Assembly (NCBI GenBank): GCA_025558095.1
Contig: JAIVFI010000023.1
Location: 1-64,000 of the forward strand
Length of the DNA: 64,000 nt
Origin: Hyaloraphidium curvatum
Lineage: Eukaryota; Monoblepharomycota; Hyaloraphidiomycetes; Hyaloraphidiales; Hyaloraphidiaceae
Reading direction: 5' to 3'
Part shown: positions 18,565-64,000 of the stretch, piece by piece
Position numbering within the stretch: the stretch's first letter is position 1
Layout: every line of letters starts with the position of its first letter
Made by a program: the position numbers and the translations under genes
The notes under the pieces: model-generated
Database searches by the model: none
Told to the model about the DNA's origin: nothing
The model's input: only the letters and a program-made list of their open reading frames with translations

Positions 18565-18824
18565 AGGTGCGAGTGGTGTCCGGAGGGCAGCTGGAACCCC
18601 GGGGGATGCATTGGAGAGTGACTGGAGTATGGTCCGGTGCCGCTCATTGCTCCCGTGAAGATAGTGCAGGACGAAGACAACGGCGACGACGAGTAGGTCG
18701 TTGCGCTCTGGATCTGATGGGTCTAGCGGAAACTTTGCTCGAGCCTCTCTCTCCTTTGGTTAGGATCCACTCTGGCAACCGCCATTTGTCCGGAGGCGAC
18801 GAGCATTCGCCAAGATAGAACGAA

Positions 18825-20924
18825 ATGTCGCTCGGTTGCGGGCGCGTGATGACGCAGCGCGTCGCGTCAGGTGCCCCACTTCGGATGCTGCCGCGCCACC
18901 CACTGGAAAAGGCCCCCCGCGCAATGTCGGGGTCCAACTCCCGCTGGTTCGATGCCTGCAAGTCCGGCAACAGCAGCCTGGTGCAAGAGTACCTGCGCCA
19001 GGCGGGATTCGACCCACGGGTGACCGACAATCTCGGACAGAATGGACTCCACCTCGCGTGCCGGCACGGACATTTCGCGTTGGCCTACCTGCTGCTGCTC
19101 GACGGCCGCATCGATCCGGCCATGCGCGTGGCGGGCTCGGCCTCCGGCTACGACGCGATGCACCTCGCGTGCGGCAGGCGTTTGAATCCCAAGGACTACG
19201 AGGGGGACCCAGCTGTCGCCCTGAAAATGCTGCCGGAACTGCTAGCCGCTGTGCGCCCCGCCTTGTTGGACTCCTTAGTCCACGGTCGTACCGCCGAGGA
19301 CACGGCCAGACAGAAGGGACACGATTCGTTGGCCACGTACATCGCCACATGGAATCGCGCGAGAGCCTCCTTTCTCCTCGGGTGTCGCGCCGGCGACGTT
19401 GACGCTGTGATCGAAGCCATGGCCTGGTCCTACGTTCCGGCCGTTGCTTGCAACGCAACCGACGCGGACGGAAACACCGGGCTACACCTGGCTGCGCAAG
19501 CAGGCCACGTGGAGATTGTTCAGACTGTCGTTCATGCCGCCGAGGTTAGGGACGACATGCGGCGGTTCAGCATCGACGTGCGTAACTGCGACGGAAGGAC
19601 TCCGCTTGCGGTGGCCGTTCTTGCAGGACAACGTGCGATCGTGGCCGAGCTCCTCCAGCATGACGGAACTTCCGTGAACATACACCTGGAGGACAAGAAC
19701 GGGGATACGCCGTTCCACCACGCTGTCCGGAGCCACAACAAGCGGATGATACGCGAGTTCCTGCGCGTGCGGCGCTCAACGGAGTTGGTGACTGCCAGGA
19801 ACAAGACCTGCCAGACGGCTCTTGATCTGGCCGACGCCGAAGAGCTCCGGATGTTCGAAAAGTACGATCGCATCCTCGGAGTCGACCTGCGGACAATGGA
19901 GATCGACCGTGCGCACGTAACTGTCGATGAGTCCCGCGTCATCGGACGTGGCGGGTTCGGGATCATCAGGCCTGGAACACTCCATGGGCAGCCCGTGGTG
20001 ATAAAGCTGCCCTTGCATGCCGATGGCAACCCCCACGACGGGGACGGGAAAGAGCGTAAACGTCATTTCTTCAAGGAGGTGCTTTATTGGATGCTCGCGT
20101 TCGAATCCGACGACATCGGGACTCCGCACCCAAACAGTAAGTTGCCGTGCATGCGCGGTTCTCCGGCGGGACCCCTCCTCATCTGCTGGCTCCGATTCCC
20201 AACAGTTTTCCCCTTCCTCGGCTACAGCCGCTTCTACGCTCTAATGGACGCCCGGGAGCCTGATCCGAACGGCATCACCGGTCCACGCCCGATTATTGAT
20301 CCGGAACGTGATTGGCTTGAGGGCTTCATCTGCCCTCACGCTGATGAGAGCCTCTATCTATGGAGCTGGTACAAGAAGACCAAACCGGACTTTTGGGAGC
20401 GGGCACTCCATTTTCTTTGCGGTGCTGCGGCCGGAGTGGCCTACCTCCACTCTCTCGACCTCGTGCATGGGGACCTTTCCGTGGGCAACATATTGATCCA
20501 CGGAGGCGAGGCCAAGATCTGCGACTTTGGCCTTACATCCATGCACCCGGGCGGCGAAAACACGGACTCGAGCCGGAACGACCCCGTTCCACTACGCCAC
20601 TTTCCAGGACCAGTCCCCTACCTGGCTCCGGAACTTATCGAGCAGCCCGCAACTGAACGCTTGCGGAAGCGTACGACGGCAACGGATGTTTATGCGTTTG
20701 GGATAGTTTGCCTGATCGTGGCGCATCGAGAGAAAGGAGATCCCGACTTCGCACCGATCCAGAAAGGCAACTGGAAAGGTCTAGATCTTCCGTCGGACGT
20801 TCCGCTCACGATCACCAAGGACCTCGATGCCCTGACAAGGAAGTGCTGCAGTCCCGAAGCCGCCAAGCGGCCGAACATGGAAGAAGTGAGGGACGAGCTC
20901 GCCAGGCTCGGGCAGCTATTGTGA
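18825..20924 (+). CDS. Ankyrin-repeat protein kinase (TKL/RIPK-like organisation)
   Basis: Ankyrin repeats over about residues 40-340 (GQNGLHLACRHGHFALAYLL, TGLHLAAQAGHVEIVQTV, DGRTPLAVAVLAGQRAIVAE, NGDTPFHHAVRSHNKRMIRE), then a kinase domain from about 370: GRGGFG glycine loop (374-379), Lys394 in VVIKLPL, HPNIVFPFLGY, catalytic HGDLSVGN (His525, Asp527), DFG Asp544, and a late APELIEQPATERL. HGD in place of HRD removes the activation-loop-contacting Arg. An intron at 20137-20205 (gtaagt to caacag, 69 nt) is likely: removing it restores HPNIV, while keeping it leaves the frame open and adds 23 residues. The spliced product is 676 aa. Such ANK-kinases are stress or signalling kinases in plants and basal fungi; the substrate is unknown. 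Confidence 0.85.
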   Translation: MSLGCGRVMTQRVASGAPLRMLPRHPLEKAPRAMSGSNSRWFDACKSGNSSLVQEYLRQAGFDPRVTDNLGQNGLHLACRHGHFALAYLLLLDGRIDPAMRVAGSASGYDAMHLACGRRLNPKDYEGDPAVALKMLPELLAAVRPALLDSLVHGRTAEDTARQKGHDSLATYIATWNRARASFLLGCRAGDVDAVIEAMAWSYVPAVACNATDADGNTGLHLAAQAGHVEIVQTVVHAAEVRDDMRRFSIDVRNCDGRTPLAVAVLAGQRAIVAELLQHDGTSVNIHLEDKNGDTPFHHAVRSHNKRMIREFLRVRRSTELVTARNKTCQTALDLADAEELRMFEKYDRILGVDLRTMEIDRAHVTVDESRVIGRGGFGIIRPGTLHGQPVVIKLPLHADGNPHDGDGKERKRHFFKEVLYWMLAFESDDIGTPHPNSKLPCMRGSPAGPLLICWLRFPTVFPFLGYSRFYALMDAREPDPNGITGPRPIIDPERDWLEGFICPHADESLYLWSWYKKTKPDFWERALHFLCGAAAGVAYLHSLDLVHGDLSVGNILIHGGEAKICDFGLTSMHPGGENTDSSRNDPVPLRHFPGPVPYLAPELIEQPATERLRKRTTATDVYAFGIVCLIVAHREKGDPDFAPIQKGNWKGLDLPSDVPLTITKDLDALTRKCCSPEAAKRPNMEEVRDELARLGQLL

Positions 20925-46950: not shown

Positions 46951-47698
46951 GGCGGTTTAAAGCCCAGGCTTCCGCGGAAGAAGGCCGCGCCAGGGAGTTC
47001 GAGCGCTGACAAAGCGCGCAAGGGCGGCATTATGGACCCATCGCGCCGGCCGCAGCAACACAGCCAAAGGGGCCCACGCCCCAAGACACCCTGTCGACCC
47101 TGGCTTTCGAACCCCAAAATCGCTAGAAACCGCGGCGAGCAACGAGCTCGGAGCGGTCGGGGGACCGTCATCCCCAGACTCGTTCGATTTCCTGGCACCG
47201 GCGGGTATCCCTCGGAACAACAAGCGGGTTGACGGGCGGTGTTCCCAAAACGGCGCGACAAGGTAACGAGTACGAGTATCATGTGGCGCTCAGAGGTCGT
47301 CCGCCGCCGCCCCTCATCTTTGTCTTCGGCCTGACGTCTGCACGAATCGCGATGTGGTTGGCACGACGAAGGGCGACCGACACAGCGGGGCCATTCGAGG
47401 GCAGAGCGGATGTCCCCCAGATGGATCTGAGGTGTTCCTAGATGACCTGAACTAACAGAGAGTTGATTTGGGTTCAGCGAATGGGGCCGTGAGTTGCGCG
47501 TCTTGGGTGCCCTCCCGAGGACTGGCCGTCCAGGGCCCAAAGCCAGGGTCTCGTCTCTCAAAGCTAATCGGCTCGCGCGGGACTCCATTGCTCCTCCCTC
47601 ACCTTTCCGTTCCTTCTCCTTCGGACGGACCGTCGTGCCCCGTGCCACCCTGTCGGGCTCGAGACACCGCACCCCGCTCCGCCGCCCGACGCGTCGCG
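46951..47698. other. Intergenic, bidirectional promoter region
   Basis: About 750 nt between the divergent oxidase and CotH genes. Long open frames exist on the minus strand (46926-47705), but composition and sequence are not protein-like (Arg/Pro/Ser runs). Confidence 0.5.
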
Positions 47699-49054
47699 AT
47701 GGCACCCGTGGCCGGCACCGGCCCCGACTACGCGTCGGCCTTCCCCGCCGACGTGGTCTCCAAGCTCACTCTGACCTTCGCGCCGGACGTGTGGAAGCGG
47801 ATGCTGGGCAACGTCGCGGCCATCTTTGCCAGCAGGGCGAAGCGCGCCGAAGCGATGAAGAAGCTGGACAAGGGGATGCTCGAGAAGCTCCTTGCCATCG
47901 TCGGCGACATGGACGGCCTGAAGAAGGTGGACCTCGAGAAGCTGGCCCTGGGGCCGGACGGGGAGCTCGTCCAGCCCCTGCAGCCGTCCGAGCCTGCGCC
48001 CGACCTGGAGTGGTTCCCGGTCACGGTGGACTTTGGCGGAAAGAAGTGGCAGCACGTTGGAGTCCGATTCAAGGGGCAGTCGTCTCTGTCGGTGTTCCAT
48101 AAGGGACAGACGACGAAGCTGCCCATGAAGCTGGGTTTCGATCATTACAAGGACGATCTGCCCAGCGTCAAGGGCCAAAGCTTCTTCGGGGTCAAAGATT
48201 TGATGCTGGCAAACAACTACCAGGACGATTCGGGGATGCGGGACACCCTGGTGTACAACGCCTTGCGCGAGGCCGGCCTGCCCTCCCTTCACACCGCCGC
48301 CTACGAGGTCTTCCTCGACACGGGCAGCGGGGCCGAGATCCTCGGCCTCTACACGGCAAGCGAGGCCGTCGATGACACCGGGGTCAAGAATTTCTTTGGT
48401 TCGGACGACGGCAACCTGTACGAGGGCGAGGGCCACGGGTCCACGCTGGCAGGGGCCAACACGGACGTCCTCGAAACCCATTTCCAAAAGAAGAACAACA
48501 AGAAGAAGGCCGACTGGGGGGACATCAAGAAGCTGCACGCGGTCCTCCACGACGCGAAGCGCACGACGGATCCGGCGGCCTGGCGCAAGGATTTCGAGGC
48601 CGTCTTTGATGTGGACGCCTTCCTGGGCTGGCTAGGCATCGCCTCTGCCGTCGGACACTGGGACTCGTACGGTATAGGGCCGCACAACTTCTACCTTTAC
48701 AATCACGGAGGCCGGATGACCTTCATTTCCTGGGACCACAACCTGACCCTGGAGGACACGGGCACGGCCAAATTCCGCACCGTCGACCACGCAAATGTTT
48801 CAGCCGCCGCGCCGCTCATCCGCTTCCTCCTCGACGACCCGGCTTACCACGCGCGCTACGTGGAGCTGTTGAGGAAGAACTTTGCCGGGGGGCTCGCGCC
48901 CGAGGCGTTCCTGAGAAAGGTGCACGCGCGGGCCGGGATCATTCGGCCTCACGCGCCCGACAAGGAGGCCTTCGACGCGTCGGTCAAGGCCATCGTGGAC
49001 TTTTATGAGGGCAAAGCGAAGGAGATCGAGGCCTACCTCGCCGTGCAGAAGTGA
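47699..49054 (+). CDS. CotH-kinase family protein, cytosolic type
   Basis: Intronless, 451 aa. CotH proteins are atypical kinases (Bacillus spore coat; cell-surface invasins in Mucorales). Seen: VRFKGQSSLSVFHKGQTTKL and PMKLGFDHY (the kinase-like N-lobe), KDLMLANNYQDDSGMRDTLV, YNALREAGLPSLHTAAYEVF, then FDVDAFLGWLGIASAVGHWD and MTFISWDHNLTLED with the D-N pattern. No signal peptide or GPI signal at the chosen ATG (MAPVAGTGPDYAS), unlike the secreted fungal CotH proteins; an open in-frame extension upstream to 47468 is present but not signal-like. The Mucorales CREL/MGQTNDGAYRDP invasin motif is absent. Confidence 0.82.
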   Translation: MAPVAGTGPDYASAFPADVVSKLTLTFAPDVWKRMLGNVAAIFASRAKRAEAMKKLDKGMLEKLLAIVGDMDGLKKVDLEKLALGPDGELVQPLQPSEPAPDLEWFPVTVDFGGKKWQHVGVRFKGQSSLSVFHKGQTTKLPMKLGFDHYKDDLPSVKGQSFFGVKDLMLANNYQDDSGMRDTLVYNALREAGLPSLHTAAYEVFLDTGSGAEILGLYTASEAVDDTGVKNFFGSDDGNLYEGEGHGSTLAGANTDVLETHFQKKNNKKKADWGDIKKLHAVLHDAKRTTDPAAWRKDFEAVFDVDAFLGWLGIASAVGHWDSYGIGPHNFYLYNHGGRMTFISWDHNLTLEDTGTAKFRTVDHANVSAAAPLIRFLLDDPAYHARYVELLRKNFAGGLAPEAFLRKVHARAGIIRPHAPDKEAFDASVKAIVDFYEGKAKEIEAYLAVQK

Positions 49055-56925: not shown

Positions 56926-58482
56926 ATGGACGCCTCCTCGCTCCTCGCCGACGACGACCCGGCGCTCCCGGGGTACGCCCTCCGCCGGTCGTGCCTCTCC
57001 GGCGACGCGGACACGGCCGTGCGGCTGCTCCGCGCGGCGCCTGCCGACGCGCTCGCGCGGACCCCCGGCGGCGTCACGGCGCTGCACTGCGCGGCGGCGG
57101 GCGGCGGCGAGAAAGTGCTGCTGCCGCTGTTCGAGGAGGACTTTGGCGAGGCGGCGTGGAGCGCGACCGACGCCGCGGGGCGCACGCCGTTCTACCTGGC
57201 CTGCGCGTACAGCAACCACGCGGCGGTCAGGCTGCTGGGCAGGGAGATGGTGCGCAGGCCCGACGGCACGTGGGACTTTGTCGCGGACATCGAGGCGGGC
57301 GCCGGCGGGCGGCCACCGGAGCGGGCCAGGGTCGGCGGCGCCCGCGCGGACGAGACCACCGCGAGGCTGGTCAGGGACGCGCGCGCGCACAGGGAAAAGC
57401 ACCGCGAGCAGGCGCGCAGGCTGGCCGCAGAAAAGGCCGCGGCCGAGAAGAGGGCGGCGGAGAGGGAGCAGCGCCGCGCGGGCAGGGTCGAGGGGTGGCA
57501 GAAGGTCCCCCCCGGCCTGCTCGGTTCCCCCAAAAAGCAGCGCGGCGACGGGACGCTGGAGCTGCCGACGCCGGCACAGATGGCCAGCGTGCGGGGCGCG
57601 CTGCACGGCCCGCCGAAGAAAAAGGCGAAAACGGAGCCGGAGCCGCGGCCGGGCGGACCGCTGCACGAGCTGGACGAGGAGATCGAGGAGCTCCCGCCCA
57701 CGCCCACCTTCCCGATCGTGCGGAGGAGGCTCAAGCCCGGGGGCACGCCGGGGGCGGCCGTCAAGGTCGAGGTGTTCAGGCCCGGCGCACCGCCCAGGCC
57801 CACCAACACGGAGCAGCCCGCCGAGGACCCCGCACCCCCGGCCTCTCTGCCGTCACCCGCCCCCTCGCAATCCCCCAACGTTACCAACGACGTCCCCCAC
57901 AAACCGCAGGTGGACATGCAGCCCGACGCCCCGCGGGACGGCTCCGAATCCAGCTCCCTCACCGCCGTCGCCCCCCTTCTCCCCACGGACCCCACCCCCC
58001 CTCCCCCCATCGGCCCGCGACCCCCGTCGCCGGACACCCCCGCCGCGCAGCAACCCGCCCCCGCACCCGGCACCGAGCACCGATCCGCGCGCCTCGCGCT
58101 CGCCGAAGCCGAGCTCGCCGCCAAGCGCGAGCTGCTCCTCGTCGAAAGGGAGCTCGCGGCGTTGCGGCGCGAAGCCCCGGGGAGGCCGTTGGAGGAGCTC
58201 AGGGAGGCGCTGTCGATCGAACGGGAGCTCGCCACCCTGCGGCGGGACTCCCCCCCGCGCGCGCTGGAGGAGCTGAGGGAAGAAGTGGAGCTGGAGAGGG
58301 AGCTCGCGCGGCTGCGCGGGAACAGGACGCTGGAGGATGCGAGGGAGGAGCTCGAGACGACGCGGGAGCTGGTGTGGGCGTGCAGGGAGCTCGAGATGCT
58401 CGACAGGGGTGAGGAGGAGGGGGGTGGGGGTTCGGGTGGGGGTTCGGGCGTCGACGAGGGGGGGAGGAGGAAGGGAGGATGA
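56926..58482 (+). CDS. Ankyrin-repeat protein with basic and coiled-coil C-terminus
   Basis: Single exon, 518 aa. About two to three ankyrin units (YALRRSCLSGDADTAVRLLR, GGVTALHCAAAGGGEKVLLP, AGRTPFYLACAYSNHAAVRL) are followed by a charged helix (REKHREQARRLAAEKAAAEK), an NLS-like PPKKKAKTEPEP, Pro-rich linkers, and a heptad region with repeating ELAALRREAP, ELATLRRDSP and ELARLRGN (about residues 385-480). A Gly/Ser tail follows. Nuclear adaptor is a guess. The long in-frame extension upstream of 56926 runs antisense to the LINE relic and is excluded. Confidence 0.65.
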   Translation: MDASSLLADDDPALPGYALRRSCLSGDADTAVRLLRAAPADALARTPGGVTALHCAAAGGGEKVLLPLFEEDFGEAAWSATDAAGRTPFYLACAYSNHAAVRLLGREMVRRPDGTWDFVADIEAGAGGRPPERARVGGARADETTARLVRDARAHREKHREQARRLAAEKAAAEKRAAEREQRRAGRVEGWQKVPPGLLGSPKKQRGDGTLELPTPAQMASVRGALHGPPKKKAKTEPEPRPGGPLHELDEEIEELPPTPTFPIVRRRLKPGGTPGAAVKVEVFRPGAPPRPTNTEQPAEDPAPPASLPSPAPSQSPNVTNDVPHKPQVDMQPDAPRDGSESSSLTAVAPLLPTDPTPPPPIGPRPPSPDTPAAQQPAPAPGTEHRSARLALAEAELAAKRELLLVERELAALRREAPGRPLEELREALSIERELATLRRDSPPRALEELREEVELERELARLRGNRTLEDAREELETTRELVWACRELEMLDRGEEEGGGGSGGGSGVDEGGRRKGG

Positions 58483-58699
58483 GGGGCCGGTGGACGGATC
58501 GGGGGCACGATCTCGCGGCACCTGTACAGGGCCCCCAGGAGCCGGCTCAGGCCCGCTTCCTGCCGCAGCACGTCCGTATGCTCCCTCAAGGCGTCCCCGT
58601 GCCGCCTTAGCGCCGCCCTGCAGAGGAGCACGTCCGCGAGGCCGCCGCCCGCGGCGCGTTCGTCCGCGGCTGCCGCGGCGGGCGCGGGAAATGCCCTGC

Positions 58700-58840
58700 T
58701 ATCCCTACGTCTTGACTTCCTGCACGTCGCGGGCCACAGGGTGGGACTGGCGAGGGTGGAAGTCCGCGCTTCCGTGGATGAGGAAGCCCGCGAATGCCTC
58801 GGGAACCTTCCCGGTGTGACCAGATCTCTATCACAGGCGC
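58700..58840 (+). pseudogene. C-terminal relic of the F-box-like family
   Basis: VEVRASVDEEARECLGNLPG plus VT matches the tail of the gene at 53718-54425 (VEIRGSADADARECLESLPG) and of the 42536 relic. A second, shorter tail (PGVTIVSA-stop) follows at about 58980-59011. Upstream bodies are missing. Lies at the edge of the composition change. Confidence 0.55.
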
Positions 58841-59311
58841 TGAGCGCCCCCCAACCCCGATACATCACGTCACGCCATATACATTGAATTCGGGGAAGAG
58901 GGGAGGGGTTAGATGTCCGCCGAGCTGCCGGGTACAGGCTTCCTTGAACCTGTTCATAAGCTGTTGGCAACCCAGTACGCGCCCCCGGTGTGACCATCGT
59001 CTCCGCCTGATCGTGGATCTCGGTGGGAAAGGGTAGTGGGAAAGGGGCAAGCCCTGCTGTCTTCTCGTCTTTGGAGGCCCAAGCCGCTACGCGTCTTAAT
59101 GGCCCTCTTCTATGGGTTGATGACGAGATCTGTGCTTCCACTTTGTCTGACTGCCTTGCCGACCCTGCTTTGTCGATCCTTTCACTACTTGCTAAGCACT
59201 TTGCTTAGCAACTTGCTTAGCTACGACCTTTGGGAGGATACTTTTCTTAAAGCTTCCTTCTTCCATGCTTCTTCTCTCTTTCTTATTACCATTATTATAC
59301 TTATTTTTTAA

Positions 59312-59338
59312 TTTAGGGAGTTTAGGGAGTATAGGGAG
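59312..59338 (+). repeat. Three tandem 9-mers, TTTAGGGAG/TATAGGGAG
   Basis: TTTAGGGAG, TTTAGGGAG, TATAGGGAG in direct succession. It contains the plant-type telomere heptamer TTTAGGG, but only as 9-bp units, so it may be coincidental or a degenerate interstitial telomeric or subtelomeric repeat. Confidence 0.8.
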
Positions 59339-59670
59339 TATTAATTTATATATATATTTATACTCTTGTGGTGAACATCCTTCTTAGGGGGAGGGGGCGC
59401 CCTGCCTTACCCCGGTATTTTTGAAAAGGGTCAATTTTATCCTCCGAATCCTCCCATCCTCCCGTAAACATTTTGCCTCCAGAAATGTGCTTCATATTAT
59501 ATATGTATGCTTTCCTGTTTTAGCTTTACACTCTCATCCTCCCGTAAGTCAACTTCGTTGACGACCAGTCTTACCCCACCACTGAGTACCCCACCTGTCT
59601 TACCCCGCCACCTCTTACCCCACCACCTGCTTCAATTCCCTTCCCCCCCTCCCCCCCGCCTCCCTCATAG

Positions 59671-59704
59671 GGCTTACGCCCAAATACGTGCTTTGGCGTA
59701 AGCC
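59671..59704. repeat. Inverted repeat / hairpin with 10-bp perfect arms
   Basis: Arms GGCTTACGCC and GGCGTAAGCC flank a 14-nt loop. The half TACGTGCTTTGGCGTA recurs exactly at 59763-59778, and a partial copy (CACGTGCTTTGA) at 59739-59750, so this is a local repeated unit. Confidence 0.8.
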
Positions 59705-59791
59705 ATTCGTTTGACGATGTCATATACTTCGTTCCTACCACGTGCTTTGAACAAGCTTTATCTACGTGCTTTGGCGTAGCCATTCCTCATT

Positions 59792-60090
59792 TCTATACAG
59801 TTCTATACATTTATTTTTTTTCTATACAGCTTATTTCTCCTGTCTAAACTCCCTCTTTTACATCTTTCCAGCTTATTTGTATAGATGTATAGAATGTATA
59901 GAATTTAAGTAAGTTATTGTACCAATCTATGATACCCGGAGTCTATCCCATGCAAATGCCCCAATTTCCTATACTTTCTATATTTCTATACACGATTCTC
60001 ACATTCTGATTCTTGCTTCTTTTCTCGTCTCCTTTCTAAGTGCTTATTCCGCCCCCCATCGCCGCGTTCTACGGCCCCAAGTTTCTATAC
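59792..60090. repeat. Cluster of eight TCTATAC motifs, both strands
   Basis: Forward copies start at 59792, 59802, 59821, 59985 and 60084; reverse copies (GTATAGA) at 59879, 59887 and 59896; a variant (CCTATAC) at 59968. Concentrated in 300 bp just beyond the 3' end of the minus-strand block. Function unknown; the density suggests a binding-site array or decayed tandem repeat. Confidence 0.75.
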
Positions 60091-60097
60091 ATGTTTT

Positions 60098-60144
60098 ACC
60101 TTCCGTGATATCACGGGGTTTTGCGAAGCAATATCACCGAAGGT
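60098..60144. repeat. Imperfect inverted repeat containing a 14-bp palindrome
   Basis: ACCTTCCGTGATAT (60098-60111) and ATATCACCGAAGGT (60131-60144) are inverted, 13 of 14 matching, with a 19-nt spacer; within the left arm CCGTGATATCACGG (60103-60116) is a perfect palindrome. It lies 25 bp beyond the stop of the single-TM gene (minus strand). Possible 3'-end hairpin of the block or an element-end sequence. Confidence 0.7.
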
Positions 60145-60169
60145 GCTTTCTCAACTTTCTTCAAATTGC

Positions 60170-60544
60170 CTATGCAATCGCTCCTTCATGGCTTTTCTCA
60201 AACAAATGCAACAGATTTTTGTAATTCCGTGCATTGCAATCAAGATCGATGTTGGTGAATCTTTTTTTCCGATGACATCGGATACTTTGCGTCGGTTTCT
60301 CAAGACATCCAATTTGAGTGCGAGGAGCATCACAAAAAGCCGTTAAAGCACGAGCTTCATCAGGTGTTAGTTCGTTTAGGGTCAATCTCTTTTGGCTTTG
60401 GTTGGGAATATCAACAAGATCAACCTGGTGAACCTCATTCGGGTCGTCACGTGCTGGAGTCTGTGCTTCTCTCGATACGGATAAGTACAAGAACGTGCCA
60501 ACAAAGATGATAAGGACGAGAGTGAAAGATATCCAGAGCCACAT
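60170..60544 (-). CDS. Single-TM protein of unknown function (compact block)
   Basis: 124 aa, no intron. The N-terminal signal anchor MWLWISFTLVLIIFVGTFLY leaves a C-terminal soluble part with four Cys (FCDAPRTQIGCLEKPTQSIR, CHRKK, DLDCNARNYK). Its ATG is 20 bp after the stop of the upstream SET gene, far tighter than host genes. Codons are mixed rather than GC-ending. No family recognised. Confidence 0.6.
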   Translation of the reverse strand: MWLWISFTLVLIIFVGTFLYLSVSREAQTPARDDPNEVHQVDLVDIPNQSQKRLTLNELTPDEARALTAFCDAPRTQIGCLEKPTQSIRCHRKKRFTNIDLDCNARNYKNLLHLFEKSHEGAIA

Positions 60545-60564
60545 CTACTTTACTGTTATACATT

Positions 60565-61296
60565 TTAGAAGTCTTCGAAATTGTACCCATAATCCAAGTA
60601 AAGTTCGTCGCCCGCACCGATGCTACGGGAAGAGTAAACGAGCAGCAATGGAGACTCCTCATCGTCAAGGCTTTTCCAGCACAATGTGCAGTTGGCGAGT
60701 TCATAAGAATGGTTGATAAGATGAGCGAAAGTTTTAGCAAAGTCGGGCATGTTGCCCAAAGAATCGGTAGGATCGATCACGAAAACGTTGCTCCTGGCGG
60801 AATACCGTTCAGTATCGCGCCCGAGCGAGTATACTTTCCATTCGTAATCCAGGCAAGTGGTCAAAGTTCCGCAATAAGCAAAGATGGGCAGACCCGCAGG
60901 GATATCACGTTTGGCAAAAACACCCAGTCCGGCGTTTGGGATACGGGAAACACGAGATTCAAAGACGGCGTCGAGGTCACGAAAAGCAAGGAGAGCCCGC
61001 GCACGTTCAAACACAAGGTTGGCGACGTGCCGATTGCCGGGGCAAATGAGATTGGCAAAGGCGATTCGGTCGTCGGTAACGAGAGCGAGTCCAAAACGAG
61101 CAGGACGAGCAAAAAGGTCACCAATGACAGAGTCGATATTCATAGGAGGCCCATGGTGAAAGCGTTGAACGAGAGCATAGGTAGCCGAGTTCAGTTGATC
61201 CCGAGTTATCGTGCGAGAAGCAAAAGCAAGAGCAGATATAGCCCATTGATGAACAGTCAAATCGGGGGAAAAGTCAGAATCAGCGAACATGGCCAC
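60565..61296 (-). CDS. SET-domain protein (compact block)
   Basis: 243 aa, intronless. SET landmarks: GLGVFAKRDIPAGLPIFAYC (SAM-binding start), FAHLINHSYELANCTLCWKS (the NHS/NH-C motif), and LLLVYSSRSIGAGDELYLDYG + YNF (the DYGxxF end). The N-terminal 120 residues (SPDLTVHQWAISALAFASRT, NIDSVIGDLFARPARFGLAL) show no known domain, and pre-SET/post-SET zinc motifs are absent. SET enzymes methylate lysines on histones or other proteins; stand-alone SET proteins also occur in giant viruses and bacteria. The C-terminal Tyr of DYGYNF is present, so catalysis is plausible. Codon usage is mixed T/C-ending, not host-like. Stop of the PAPVAP gene lies 20 bp before its ATG. Confidence 0.78.
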   Translation of the reverse strand: MAMFADSDFSPDLTVHQWAISALAFASRTITRDQLNSATYALVQRFHHGPPMNIDSVIGDLFARPARFGLALVTDDRIAFANLICPGNRHVANLVFERARALLAFRDLDAVFESRVSRIPNAGLGVFAKRDIPAGLPIFAYCGTLTTCLDYEWKVYSLGRDTERYSARSNVFVIDPTDSLGNMPDFAKTFAHLINHSYELANCTLCWKSLDDEESPLLLVYSSRSIGAGDELYLDYGYNFEDF

Positions 61297-61316
61297 ATGA
61301 GCTAGAGACGCACCGT

Positions 61317-62398
61317 TTAGAACACAGGTTTGGGGCTTAACTGGCCGAAAGCCGAACCTGGTGTCTGAGCGCGAAGGAACTCATCGAGGTCGGCTTCGAA
61401 GCCCACGAAACGCCCTGGGCTCATCGGATCGAGAACATGCCAATCAAAGTCGTTGAAGGACTCGGGGAGATCGGGCCAAAGCATGGTGACGCCATCTTGC
61501 AGTGTGACAGCAAGCTCGTCGAGATCGGGAGCCGAGGCAACGGGAGCCGGCGCAACGGGAGTTGGCGCAATGGGAGCTGGGGCAACGGGAGTCGGCGCAA
61601 TGGGCACCGGCGCAACGGGAGCCGGAACAACGGGAGCCGGCGCAATGGGCACCGGCGCAACGGGAGCCGGGGCAACGGCAGCCGGAACAAACTCTGTGAA
61701 GGGACGTTAGACGATATCACGGAACACAAGACAAACGAACCTTCAAAAGCGCGTTTTAACCAGTCGATGGCGGCCCGAAGGTTCGAGTAAAGAGCATAGG
61801 AAACGTCGTCCGAGTACTCGATGTAGGAGGTGGAATGAACGCGTTCAAGTAGGCTTTGATCAACGATGACGGGAACAATCTCATCGCGGAACCGAGACTG
61901 GAACTCGGCGACCTCATAATCGAGAGCAGCGAAGGCGAGGACTTGCTGACGACGCAGAAAAGTGGCGTCGGGGTTGAGTGGAGTGAGGTCCTCGTGCTGG
62001 GGAGGCAAGGCCGGGTGACGAGCATCGAGCAACGCGATCCAGATCCGCGGGTCACGGTCCGCGTTATGAACTAGGCTGTCGGACGCGATGGCATGAGAAA
62101 ATAGGTTTCGAAACGAAGGGATAACGACTCACAAAGAGCCGGGATCCGTGGCGGGGCAGCTGGCGAACCAGAAGACATAGAGCGCGTCGCCGACACGAAC
62201 CGTGTTGTTGTCACGAAGCGCGTCGCACAGGACGTGACTTGGGGCGAGAGCGGCGGGAAAGAGGATAGCAGGGATGTAGGCACGCGCCCAGTCGCCGGCC
62301 ATGAGGCCTTCGTTCCAGACATAGACGAGTTGGAAAGGTTTGAGCGAAGCGGGATTGACCACGACAAACTGGTCGCCGCGAGCGAACGACAGGGCCAT
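61317..62398 (-). CDS. PAPVAP-repeat protein with three exons (compact block)
   Basis: Exons 62398-62133, 62075-61741 and 61693-61317 total 978 nt, 325 aa, with intact frame; introns of 57 and 47 nt start GTGAGT and GTTCGT and end CAG. Begins MALSFARGDQFVVVNPASLK, a globular domain with LVYVWNEGLMAGDWARAYIP and RVGDALYVFWFASCPATDPG, then helices (RRQQVLAFAALDYEVAEFQS, LYSNLRAAIDWLKRAFE), a PAPVAPVPIAP tract of about 45 residues, and a C-domain with acidic residues (DLDELAVTLQDGVTMLWPDL). No known family recognised. The splice signals show it was expressed in a nucleus with a spliceosome. An additional upstream exon is possible. Confidence 0.68.
61530..61685 (-). repeat. Tandem repeats encoding PAPVAP / PVPIAP
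   Basis: Alternating units of about 18 and 30 nt (GGAGCCGGCGCAACG, GGCACCGGCGCAATG variants) giving a proline-valine-alanine linker inside the third exon of the gene at 61317-62398. Confidence 0.8.
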
Positions 62399-62991
62399 GG
62401 TGGTTCAGTTAATGACGTGATACGTTGCGTTCCCGCGTCGGTGGGGACGGCCATCGGTATCGGAAGAGACCGGAAAGCGGAAAAGTGCGGAGAGCGAGAC
62501 GATGCGTTTCGCCCAATGGAACAACAGGCCAAACTATCGGAACAACTGAACCGACAAATAGGAAAGCGCAAAGTGCGCGACCAGTTGAAGGAAAGCGTGC
62601 CGTGTTTTTCCCGAGCGGCCATGAGTAACTCACCGCATGGGGATAGGCGCTGGGACCCGGCTAAACGGCATAACTCAAACCGGGACGCAAGCAAGTGTTA
62701 AGCTAAATGGCGAATCGCAAACGCGTTATAGAATCACACACTTTACCGTGCTGCCGAGACGGAGACACAAACTTACGAACTCGTCCTTTGTCGGGGCTTA
62801 GCTTCGGCCGTCAAAGATCGAAGGCTTTCCCTTCCGGGTGTCGGGAGAAGGGGTTCGTGGCAAAGTCCGATCTGAAGCAATAGGCCGTGCGCCTATATAT
62901 AGAGCCAGGTTCAACGAATATAAGCCAGCGTTCCGACGCCTGACGCTGCATAATTCTACACACGAAACGCGTCCGTGTTGTGGCCGCATGA
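62399..62991. other. Intergenic in the compact block, unresolved
   Basis: About 590 nt. A CCCATGCGgtgagttactc sequence on the minus strand (near 62635) looks like an ATG exon end with a strong donor, perhaps a leading exon of the PAPVAP gene. A minus-strand frame at 62798-62989 has no support. Confidence 0.35.
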
Positions 62992-63225
62992 TCAGCCAAG
63001 AATGAGCAATTCAAACTCAGTGGGACGGAGGGATTGGAGCCAAAACACAGCGCCATCGGAGAACGGGGACACAGGAATGTCGTCGAGAAGCTCGAATTCC
63101 AGCGCGGAATTGGAGCCATCGCGAGCAAAGTTGACTGCCGCGTCGGTTTGCGCGGTCTTGAAAGGGGGCAGAGTCGCGTGGAACGAGGTGAAGTCGGGGG
63201 CCAGTCGGTGGCGCAGGATCCTCAT
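62992..63225 (-). CDS. Small ORF, unknown function (compact block)
   Basis: 77 aa: MRILRHRLAPDFTSFHATLP, then FKTAQTDAAVNFARDGSNSA and LEFELLDDIPVSPFSDGAVF, ending in a hydrophobic TEFELLILG. Reads naturally in this frame. The plus strand has an overlapping 130-codon open frame ending KILQTHYVIM that I judge a shadow, though it is the main alternative. The frame upstream continues beyond the ATG until a TAG at 63244. Confidence 0.4.
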   Translation of the reverse strand: MRILRHRLAPDFTSFHATLPPFKTAQTDAAVNFARDGSNSALEFELLDDIPVSPFSDGAVFWLQSLRPTEFELLILG

Positions 63226-63405
63226 GTGGCCTTGGCAGACGAGACTCTACCGGGAATTGGCGAAGGTGGTGTCGACGGAATACCTTGACTCTTTGAGCGC
63301 CGCACACGCGGCGGACACGGACGCGATTCGACGAGGACTTGAACTCGAAATGAAGGCGAAGATACTGCAAACACACTATGTAATCATGTAACTTGGCCAA
63401 AACAG

Positions 63406-64000
63406 CTAAAGCTCATCGCTCATTTTCCTCCGACGCCCACTGCTTCTGGTGGGCTTGGGATCCTCCTCCATTTCCACGACTTCTTCTTCCTCCGGGACAT
63501 CACCACCAGTGCCCTCCCCTTCGTGCCCCGAGGCTTGACCACCGTTGCCCTCCGAGCCGCTTCCCTCGTTGCCTTTGTTGGCGTCGCTTGCGCTAGCCGA
63601 CTGCCAGCCATCTTCCCCTTCGCCAGCAGACTGCGAGCTCCCCGAGCTGGAATCGGAACCGGAGCCGGAACCAGAGCCGGAACCGGAGCCGGAACCAGAG
63701 CCGGAACCGGAACCGGAACCGGAACCAGACCCAGACTGGGAGCCTTCGGCATCGCTCTTGCCGGCATCGTAAGCCTTGGGAACGGCGTCAGCCCACTTCG
63801 TGGCGTAAAGAGCGGCGGTATGGAACGCGTTCTTCTGGCCCATAAAGTATGCCGATTTGGCGCCAGAAAGATACGAGGCCTTGATCTTGTGGGCAATGTC
63901 GGGAGACAACAAAGGCACGATATCGCTATTGATGACAGACTGGGAGAAATGAGCTAAACCGGCATAGTCACGGCCGGCTTCGACACTCACCTGCTCCCAC
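63406..64000 (-). CDS. Ser-Gly-repeat protein, 5' part outside the window (compact block)
   Basis: Last exon 63939-63406, preceded by a likely 51-nt intron at 63990-63940 (gtgagt to ctcccag) and by an exon ending at 63991 that runs off the window. Visible sequence: [20 protein letters not shown], an alpha-helical part ([20 protein letters not shown]), then about 28 residues of alternating Ser-Gly, then an acidic tail ([18 protein letters not shown]) and basic end [14 protein letters not shown], an NLS-like cluster. Ends TAG. Family unknown. Confidence 0.55.
63646..63745 (-). repeat. Hexamer/12-mer repeat encoding (SG)n
   Basis: GGAACCGGAGCC/GGAACCAGAGCC units repeated about eight times (complement codes Ser-Gly), giving a low-complexity linker. 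Confidence 0.85.

Follow-up and report, generated by a model that had tools for sequence, protein, structure and literature searches.

The endogenous mavirus-like elements (EMALEs) of Cafeteria burkhardae measure 5.5-21.5 kb, are bounded by terminal inverted repeats (TIRs) of 0.2-2.3 kb, encode a primase/helicase and are low in GC within a 70%-GC host (PMC8547959). Transpovirons of the Mimiviridae are ~7 kb long, with TIRs of 380-520 nt and core genes that include a helicase and a zinc-finger protein (PMC7031253). A figure legend on Polinton-like elements lists methyltransferase and HNH genes; the same large protist survey excluded Fungi and is thus silent on fungal relatives (PMC10120064). 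As of 2023 no double-stranded DNA virus infecting fungi was known (PMC10640383), and giant viruses with likely fungal hosts have been indicated (PMC10640383, PMC9894930). Here we describe an element of the fungus Hyaloraphidium curvatum that begins in the window, the stretch of DNA analysed (the first 64 kb of contig C23, 699,274 bp, in an assembly of 31.9 Mb and 55 contigs), and continues beyond it. No description of such a family in fungi was found in the open-licence PMC literature, by titles and abstract beginnings.

An 18-kb island and its edges

The original prediction had taken a sharp change in base composition at ~59.1 kb for the start of an inserted element or else of a fungal accessory cassette, and had held that a gradual, isochore-like return of composition would speak against insertion. 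The change is there, with GC falling from 0.706 at 58,001-59,000 to 0.439 at 59,001-60,000. We examined C23 to 118,000 (coordinates past 64 kb continue the window numbering). In 500-bp steps over 50-118 kb, GC was 0.38-0.61 inside 59.0-77.0 kb and 0.60-0.79 on both flanks, and the rise back to host level, between 76.5 and 77.0 kb, was abrupt. Because GC is low only across 59.0-77.0 kb and host-like on both sides, the break at ~59.1 kb marks the border of an 18-kb island and does not reflect an isochore. The island is two-part, with 53-61% GC at ~61.0-64.5 kb and 38-48% over most of the remainder.

Self-comparison of 58.0-79.0 kb gave a single inverted pair at the edges, 59,023-59,665 against 76,937-76,295 (643 bp, 100% identical). 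With its end placed at a motif common to relatives (TGGGA...), the element spans 59,024-76,936, or 17,913 bp. The block is almost certainly the left end of a bounded element inserted into the fungal chromosome; the helicase, TIRs, target duplication and abrupt GC return found past 64 kb bear out insertion, and the cassette alternative gained no support. Since the two C23 TIRs are identical, they point to a recent insertion or to homogenisation by conversion. The host neighbours are a 661-aa open reading frame (ORF) ending at 58,482, ankyrin-like by eye, and an ORF with its ATG at 77,119. The left end comprises the following features.

59,019-59,023, no strand: target-site duplication CTCGG, left copy (right copy at C23:76,937-76,941; the flanks match over exactly 5 bp)
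59,024-64,000, no strand: left 4,977 bp of the element, which extends to C23:76,936 (from GC profile, TIRs and target duplication)
59,024-59,665, plus strand: left TIR (the 643-bp identical match takes in one flanking base)
59,024-59,046, plus strand: terminal direct repeat of 13-bp period, TGGGAAAGGGTAGTGGGAAAGGG, the family end signature (perfect matches genome-wide confined to C23, C39 and C2 ends; none for the reversed control)
59,189-59,211, plus strand: 23-bp interrupted palindrome, TTGCTAAGCACTTTGCTTAGCAA, within the TIR

Related copies in the same genome

DNA and protein searches of the genome found, besides C23, copies on four other contigs; such searches give lower bounds for repeats, and further copies may exist.

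C39:114,562-122,489: copy of 7,928 bp, TIRs 98.9% over 720 bp, duplication TAGAC
C9:753,546-758,216: copy of 4,671 bp, TIRs 88% over 121 bp, duplication TCCGT
C27:521,977-522,310: 334-bp derivative resembling a miniature inverted-repeat transposable element (MITE), duplication ACGAG
C2, left end at 665,986: piece for which no right end was seen

The target duplication is exactly 5 bp in all four complete copies (CTCGG, TAGAC, TCCGT and ACGAG), and random pairs of 5-mers from the host part of C23 are identical with a frequency of 0.0019. Ends, duplications, related copies and a deletion derivative together show that this is a mobile element. Allowing up to two mismatches, the 23-base end pattern occurs at eight genome sites (reversed control 0), of which the five perfect ones are ends of C23, C39 and C2; the C9 and C27 ends are not among the eight. 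The other three sites (1-2 mismatches; C44, C14 and C39:7,110) were rejected as family members, as their 3-kb loci have no TIR similarity.

The palindrome lies 156-168 bp from the tip in four of the five elements (C23, C39, C2 and C27) and is missing from C9. Because its TIR sequence also differs, C9 is a more distant member of the family. As DNA, 41-nt pieces around the palindrome of C23 and C39 fold better than all 200 shuffles; among longer pieces, the 100-nt one of C23 again beats all 200, and the 97-nt one of C39 is equalled by 5 of 200. Compared in 25-bp steps, the C23 and C39 TIRs have identities of 0.80 at the tip, 0.76-0.92 at ~101-200 bp, and 1.0 and 0.8 at ~551-600 bp, against 0.16-0.64 outside these patches. 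The ~101-200-bp patch contains the palindrome, and the ~551-600-bp patch falls within a 29-bp tandem unit found in both C23 and C39; these units are pyrimidine-rich. Such patchy conservation suggests putative protein-binding or origin sites.

Termini are TG...CA in three of the four complete copies and AG...CT in C9. A 5-bp stagger with TG...CA tips is the mark left by retro-type integrases, and the occurrence of both therefore indicates a DDE/rve enzyme, in trans or undetected. Apart from the ends, the helicase and an HNH-like gene, the sequence common to the copies is small; by helicase search and blastn, the one gene that C23, C39 and C9 share encodes a helicase rather than a transposase.

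Two further observations concern these loci. The C2 piece adjoins a gypsy-like retrotransposon (from ~C2:668,200 on; reverse transcriptase recognised by eye) with a 2.1-kb stretch repeated at 99.4%. Inside the C9 element, an ORF at C9:754,178-755,011 has His and Cys motifs that look caspase-like by eye, and no Pfam match.

The D5-type helicase

The shared gene is represented in C23 by one ORF past the window.

C23:66,168-68,588, plus strand: D5/P4-type superfamily 3 (SF3) helicase ORF, above cut-off for D5_N (Pfam) and TIGR01613 (NCBIfam)

Its TIGR01613 score is 171 bits against a cut-off of 108.7, and in a six-sequence alignment the C23 protein retains the conserved SF3 blocks of its relatives, Walker A among them. 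The helicase profile matches poxvirus D5 (1.3e-19) and African swine fever virus (ASFV) C962R (about 9e-19). In a word-based search of 5.8 billion proteins, the closest full-length relatives were three proteins of 930-966 aa with 38-43% identity, bearing the source tag 'lgn' and taken as metagenome assemblies; the six-sequence profile added distant relatives only. All three carry PF09250, an N-terminal primase-polymerase domain. The C23 ORF lacks this primase half, and no other piece of it turned up when the three relatives were compared by tblastn with 118 kb of C23. The start of the C39 ORF lies just inside the TIR; in C9, too, the primase half is missing from the ORF. The first in-frame ATG is at codon 92 in C23 and codon 140 in C39. 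Since no primase domain was seen in any of the three helicase genes, priming in these copies probably depends on outside help too.

Elsewhere in the genome, two long ORFs (1664 and 1416 aa) at C26:386,550-391,541 and 401,462-405,709 have a D5-type helicase region, and a further ORF at C26:392,174-393,439 is primase-like by eye. We rejected this stretch as a family member, its GC being 0.53-0.73 and its sole separate inverted pair consisting of 50-bp arms within 0.25 kb; its D5-type ORFs are possibly older or domesticated relatives. A very distant D5-type match (23% identity, E 5e-5) lies at C35:118,949-119,548, inside a 1923-aa open frame.

Hallmark genes and competing explanations

Pfam scans of the element and its relatives covered 20 C23 ORF pieces, six C39 ORFs, three C9 ORFs and one C2 ORF, together with C23:68.5-76.4 kb in six frames and 63.5-68.0 kb in five of six. 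They gave no match to a capsid, packaging ATPase, DNA polymerase B (PolB), integrase or transposase, nor did ten C23 ORFs match any of these in PHROGs or NCBIfam. Hallmark genes, the capsid included, are likely absent, with the proviso that very divergent capsids could escape these libraries. The profile PF03175 (protein-primed PolB) had no match in the element scans or genome-wide, where its control was likewise silent. Mavericks/Polintons use an rve integrase and make target duplications of about 6 bp; in the element scans rve gave 0 matches, and the duplications are 5 bp in all four copies.

With confidence about evenly balanced for and against, we favour a replicon of viral or plasmid descent that has no capsid and moves in the manner of a transposon, rather than an ordinary transposon with captured genes. 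Such a replicon, integrating with help, is preferred because the shared gene is a helicase of replicative type, not a transposase, and because the TIRs look like structured replication ends. In this model, TIR signals (13-bp terminal repeats, 23-bp palindrome and 29-bp pyrimidine-rich tandem units) would be where the helicase starts to melt and copy the linear element, with priming probably supplied by outside help. Joining of the element to the chromosome, at a stagger of 5 bp, would fall to a DDE/rve-type recombinase that either acts in trans or is encoded by one of the unassigned ORFs. Accessory cargo in this view, serving to adjust host chromatin and physiology, would be the DNA methyltransferase, the membrane proteins and the SET protein. 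More tentatively, and below even confidence, we propose a distinct fungal class of capsid-less linear replicons built around a D5-type SF3 helicase at structured TIRs, with MITE-like derivatives and cargo differing per copy; if real, this class would connect DNA transposons with Polinton-like viruses within fungi.

Several findings weigh against the replicon model, beginning with the lack of any integrase, transposase, capsid, ATPase or PolB match in the scans. Helicase ORFs are shortened in all three copies (C23, C39 and C9), which makes the autonomy of these copies doubtful. Phage and plasmid primases are matched by the helicase too, with 949 phage records and, for the 10 listed, identities of 24-28%; as it matches both these and the eukaryotic-virus D5 proteins, an origin from a eukaryotic virus is not established. 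Among IMG/VR viral contigs there was no close relative (0 for the helicase alone, 2 contigs at 24-25% for its profile). The C9 ends depart from the family, as described above, and the left arm, with its introns and higher GC, looks more like captured nuclear cargo than like a set of virus genes.

One rather doubtful alternative is a TIR DNA transposon of a generally known type, with its transposase unrecognised or in trans and its helicase, methyltransferase, SET and other genes captured as cargo. TIRs, a target duplication of constant length (5 bp), a non-autonomous derivative (the 334-bp MITE-like copy) and little sequence common to the copies are all found here, and the TG...CA termini of three copies resemble retro-type integrase substrates. 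It is harder to square with a common gene that is a helicase instead of a transposase, with the absence of a DDE domain from the C23 scans and from six C39 and three C9 ORFs, or with long structured TIRs, which in our judgement are more replicon-like. The retrotransposon beside the C2 piece is at most a putative helper, no integrase having been seen in the part examined. An EMALE-like origin, from an endogenous virophage or Polinton-like virus that decayed and lost its capsid module, we consider unlikely, even though the anatomy is as in Cafeteria EMALEs (PMC8547959). Both C23 and C39 are TIR-bounded, low-GC integrated DNA within the EMALE-type range of 5-22 kb (C9 has 4.7 kb), and the helicase half of a primase/helicase is present, the primase half not found. 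However, no capsid, ATPase, protease, PolB or rve match came from the scanned ORFs of C23, C39 and C9, and no part of the capsid module (major capsid protein (MCP), penton, ATPase, protease) from the C23 scans; the C23 insertion, moreover, is recent unless its TIRs were converted, so needed capsid genes should persist.

A fragment of an endogenised giant virus would fit in that genes for D5-type helicases, SET proteins, ankyrins and methyltransferases are common in giant viruses. The original prediction had noted that stand-alone SET genes, tight packing and odd composition are common in large DNA viruses; this side of its reading is upheld in part, by the virus-type helicase, whereas integrase, PolB, packaging ATPase and capsid were found neither in the scanned ORFs nor in the six-frame stretches. 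Giant-virus insertion is known in Rhizophagus (PMC10640383), but an endogenised fragment of this kind is very improbable here. It is disfavoured by the precision of the TIRs, by the target duplications and by the existence of related copies, one of them MITE-like, and among core genes of nucleocytoplasmic large DNA viruses (MCP, PolB, A32, VLTF3, RNA polymerase) the D5-type helicase alone was found in the element. Least credible of all is a host accessory cassette, an isochore or an assembly artefact: the left-arm introns and moderate GC would suit a cassette or isochore, and against them stand the abrupt GC return near 77.0 kb, host DNA on both sides, the target duplication and relatives with the same ends.

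Comparison with known systems

The element and the EMALEs resemble each other in size, in having long TIRs and a helicase, and in being GC-poor within GC-rich genomes (PMC8547959). Here, however, the host is a fungus, the cargo is spliced, and capsid, ATPase, protease, PolB and rve integrase were not detected. With Polinton-like viruses/Mavericks the likeness extends to TIRs, integration, the helicase half of a primase-helicase, and methyltransferase and HNH genes (PMC10120064); MCP and PolB, by contrast, were not detected in the element. Transpovirons share TIRs, a helicase and a zinc-finger protein with it, but are episomes tied to giant viruses with a superfamily 1-type helicase, whereas the element is chromosomal and its helicase SF3-type (PMC7031253). 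The helicase region matches those of poxvirus D5, ASFV C962R and the P4-family primase-helicases in sequence, and differs in that the copies here lack the N-terminal primase domain. Transpovirons are not known to carry a capsid gene, a further likeness to the element.

With its defined bounds, seemingly recent arrival and virus-type replicative helicase, this insertion gives a concrete way to ask whether virophage- or Polinton-like replicons occur in fungi, and it bears on how such replicons persist without capsids. Its ends, duplications and derivatives make movement directly testable.

Genes of the right part

Other genes lying beyond the window are listed below.

C23:65,031-65,933, minus strand: N4/N6 DNA methyltransferase (Pfam 110.7 bits; best phage family phrog_67, 3.3e-39)
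C23:69,787-70,566, minus strand: protein without an assigned family, N-terminal part shared with ten database proteins
C23:73,209-73,487: HNH-like protein of 93 aa, with relatives in the genome only on C9 and C2
C23:74,277-74,939: ORF with a weak ankyrin match, below cut-off
C23:74,876-75,355: ORF with DUF2177, above the Pfam cut-off
C23:75,404-75,808: TspO, above the Pfam cut-off

A reading of the 69.8-70.6 kb protein as a viral DNA-binding protein with a GIY-YIG-like tail is no more than a lead: it had no supporting family match, its one NCBIfam match (E 0.0087) being far below cut-off. Neither it nor the methyltransferase had relatives in IMG/VR. For the HNH-like proteins of C23 and C2, the top Pfam matches were HNH and HNH_2, both below cut-off, and the predicted structure (mean pLDDT 57) was too low in confidence to use. 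An internal inverted duplication, 68,331-69,775 against 70,172-71,612 (arms of 1.44 kb, 99.2% identical), repeats the tail of the helicase gene along with part of the 69.8-70.6 kb gene, and is either real or an assembly artefact.

Genes of the left arm

Within the window the element carries five ORFs or genes.

60,170-60,544, minus strand: ORF of 124 aa with Cys and a single transmembrane (TM) segment (by eye), no confident Pfam family
60,565-61,296, minus strand: SET-domain protein (possible GTG start at 61,296, first ATG at 61,290; domain at ORF residues 123-237)
61,317-62,398, minus strand: predicted three-exon gene of 325 aa (62,398-62,133; 62,075-61,741; 61,693-61,317), no Pfam family
62,992-63,225, minus strand: ORF of 77 aa, weak support
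63,406-64,000, minus strand: C-terminal part of an ORF reaching ~64,350, with a CCHC zinc knuckle and a Ser-Gly repeat

All supported genes from 60,170 to 64,000 are on the minus strand, as predicted; beyond 64 kb both strands are used. The predicted SET protein was confirmed at 46.9 bits (Pfam cut-off 22.4), with the whole profile matched, and its listed solved relatives are KMT2-type (MLL-type) methyltransferases (best E 1.9e-5). Two neighbouring gaps had been given as 20 bp each: that between the TM-Cys and SET genes (60,545-60,564) is exactly so, and that between the SET and three-exon genes is 20 bp from the GTG and 26 bp from the first ATG. Spliceosomal introns, claimed for two genes, held for one, the three-exon gene, whose two predicted GT-AG introns (57 and 47 nt) are supported by reading-frame continuity in a model picked by eye on donor sites from 21 in-frame splice combinations. 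In the CCHC ORF the frame is open throughout and no intron was supported; its one zinc knuckle scores 19.3 bits, just under the Pfam cut-off of 20.8, and it has no confident family. The claim that none of the block's contents has a relative elsewhere in the window, taken genome-wide, is right for DNA apart from two short matches of 59,700-64,000 (63 bp, C39; 47 bp, C12); as a family, SET has 26 other genome matches (the best by E-value among seven loci compared being 25% over 126 aa).

The mixed codon usage noted earlier, set against GC-ending host genes, was also recovered: GC content at third codon positions (GC3) is 0.41-0.74 in the block and 0.73-0.89 in five measured host ORFs. Within the element it is 0.41-0.50 for the TM-Cys and SET genes, 0.36-0.57 for right-part ORFs and 0.59-0.74 for the CCHC gene and the three-exon gene (exons 1 and 3, exon 2 excluded). 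Because its GC3 exceeds that of the TM-Cys, SET and right-part ORFs, the central left arm probably derives, as cargo, from another source. Low-complexity stretches comprise a proline-alanine codon repeat in the three-exon gene (61,500-61,700) and the Ser-Gly repeat of the CCHC gene (~63,650-63,750).

Genome-wide, there were 74 Fungal_trans matches at E up to 0.001 and none to PF00504 (chlorophyll a/b-binding); these results identify the host as a fungus, and a photosynthetic one, such as a GC-rich alga of 32 Mb, was rejected. Host genes in the window include an ankyrin-protein kinase (18,819-20,921) and a CotH kinase-like protein (47,456-49,051; 157 bits).

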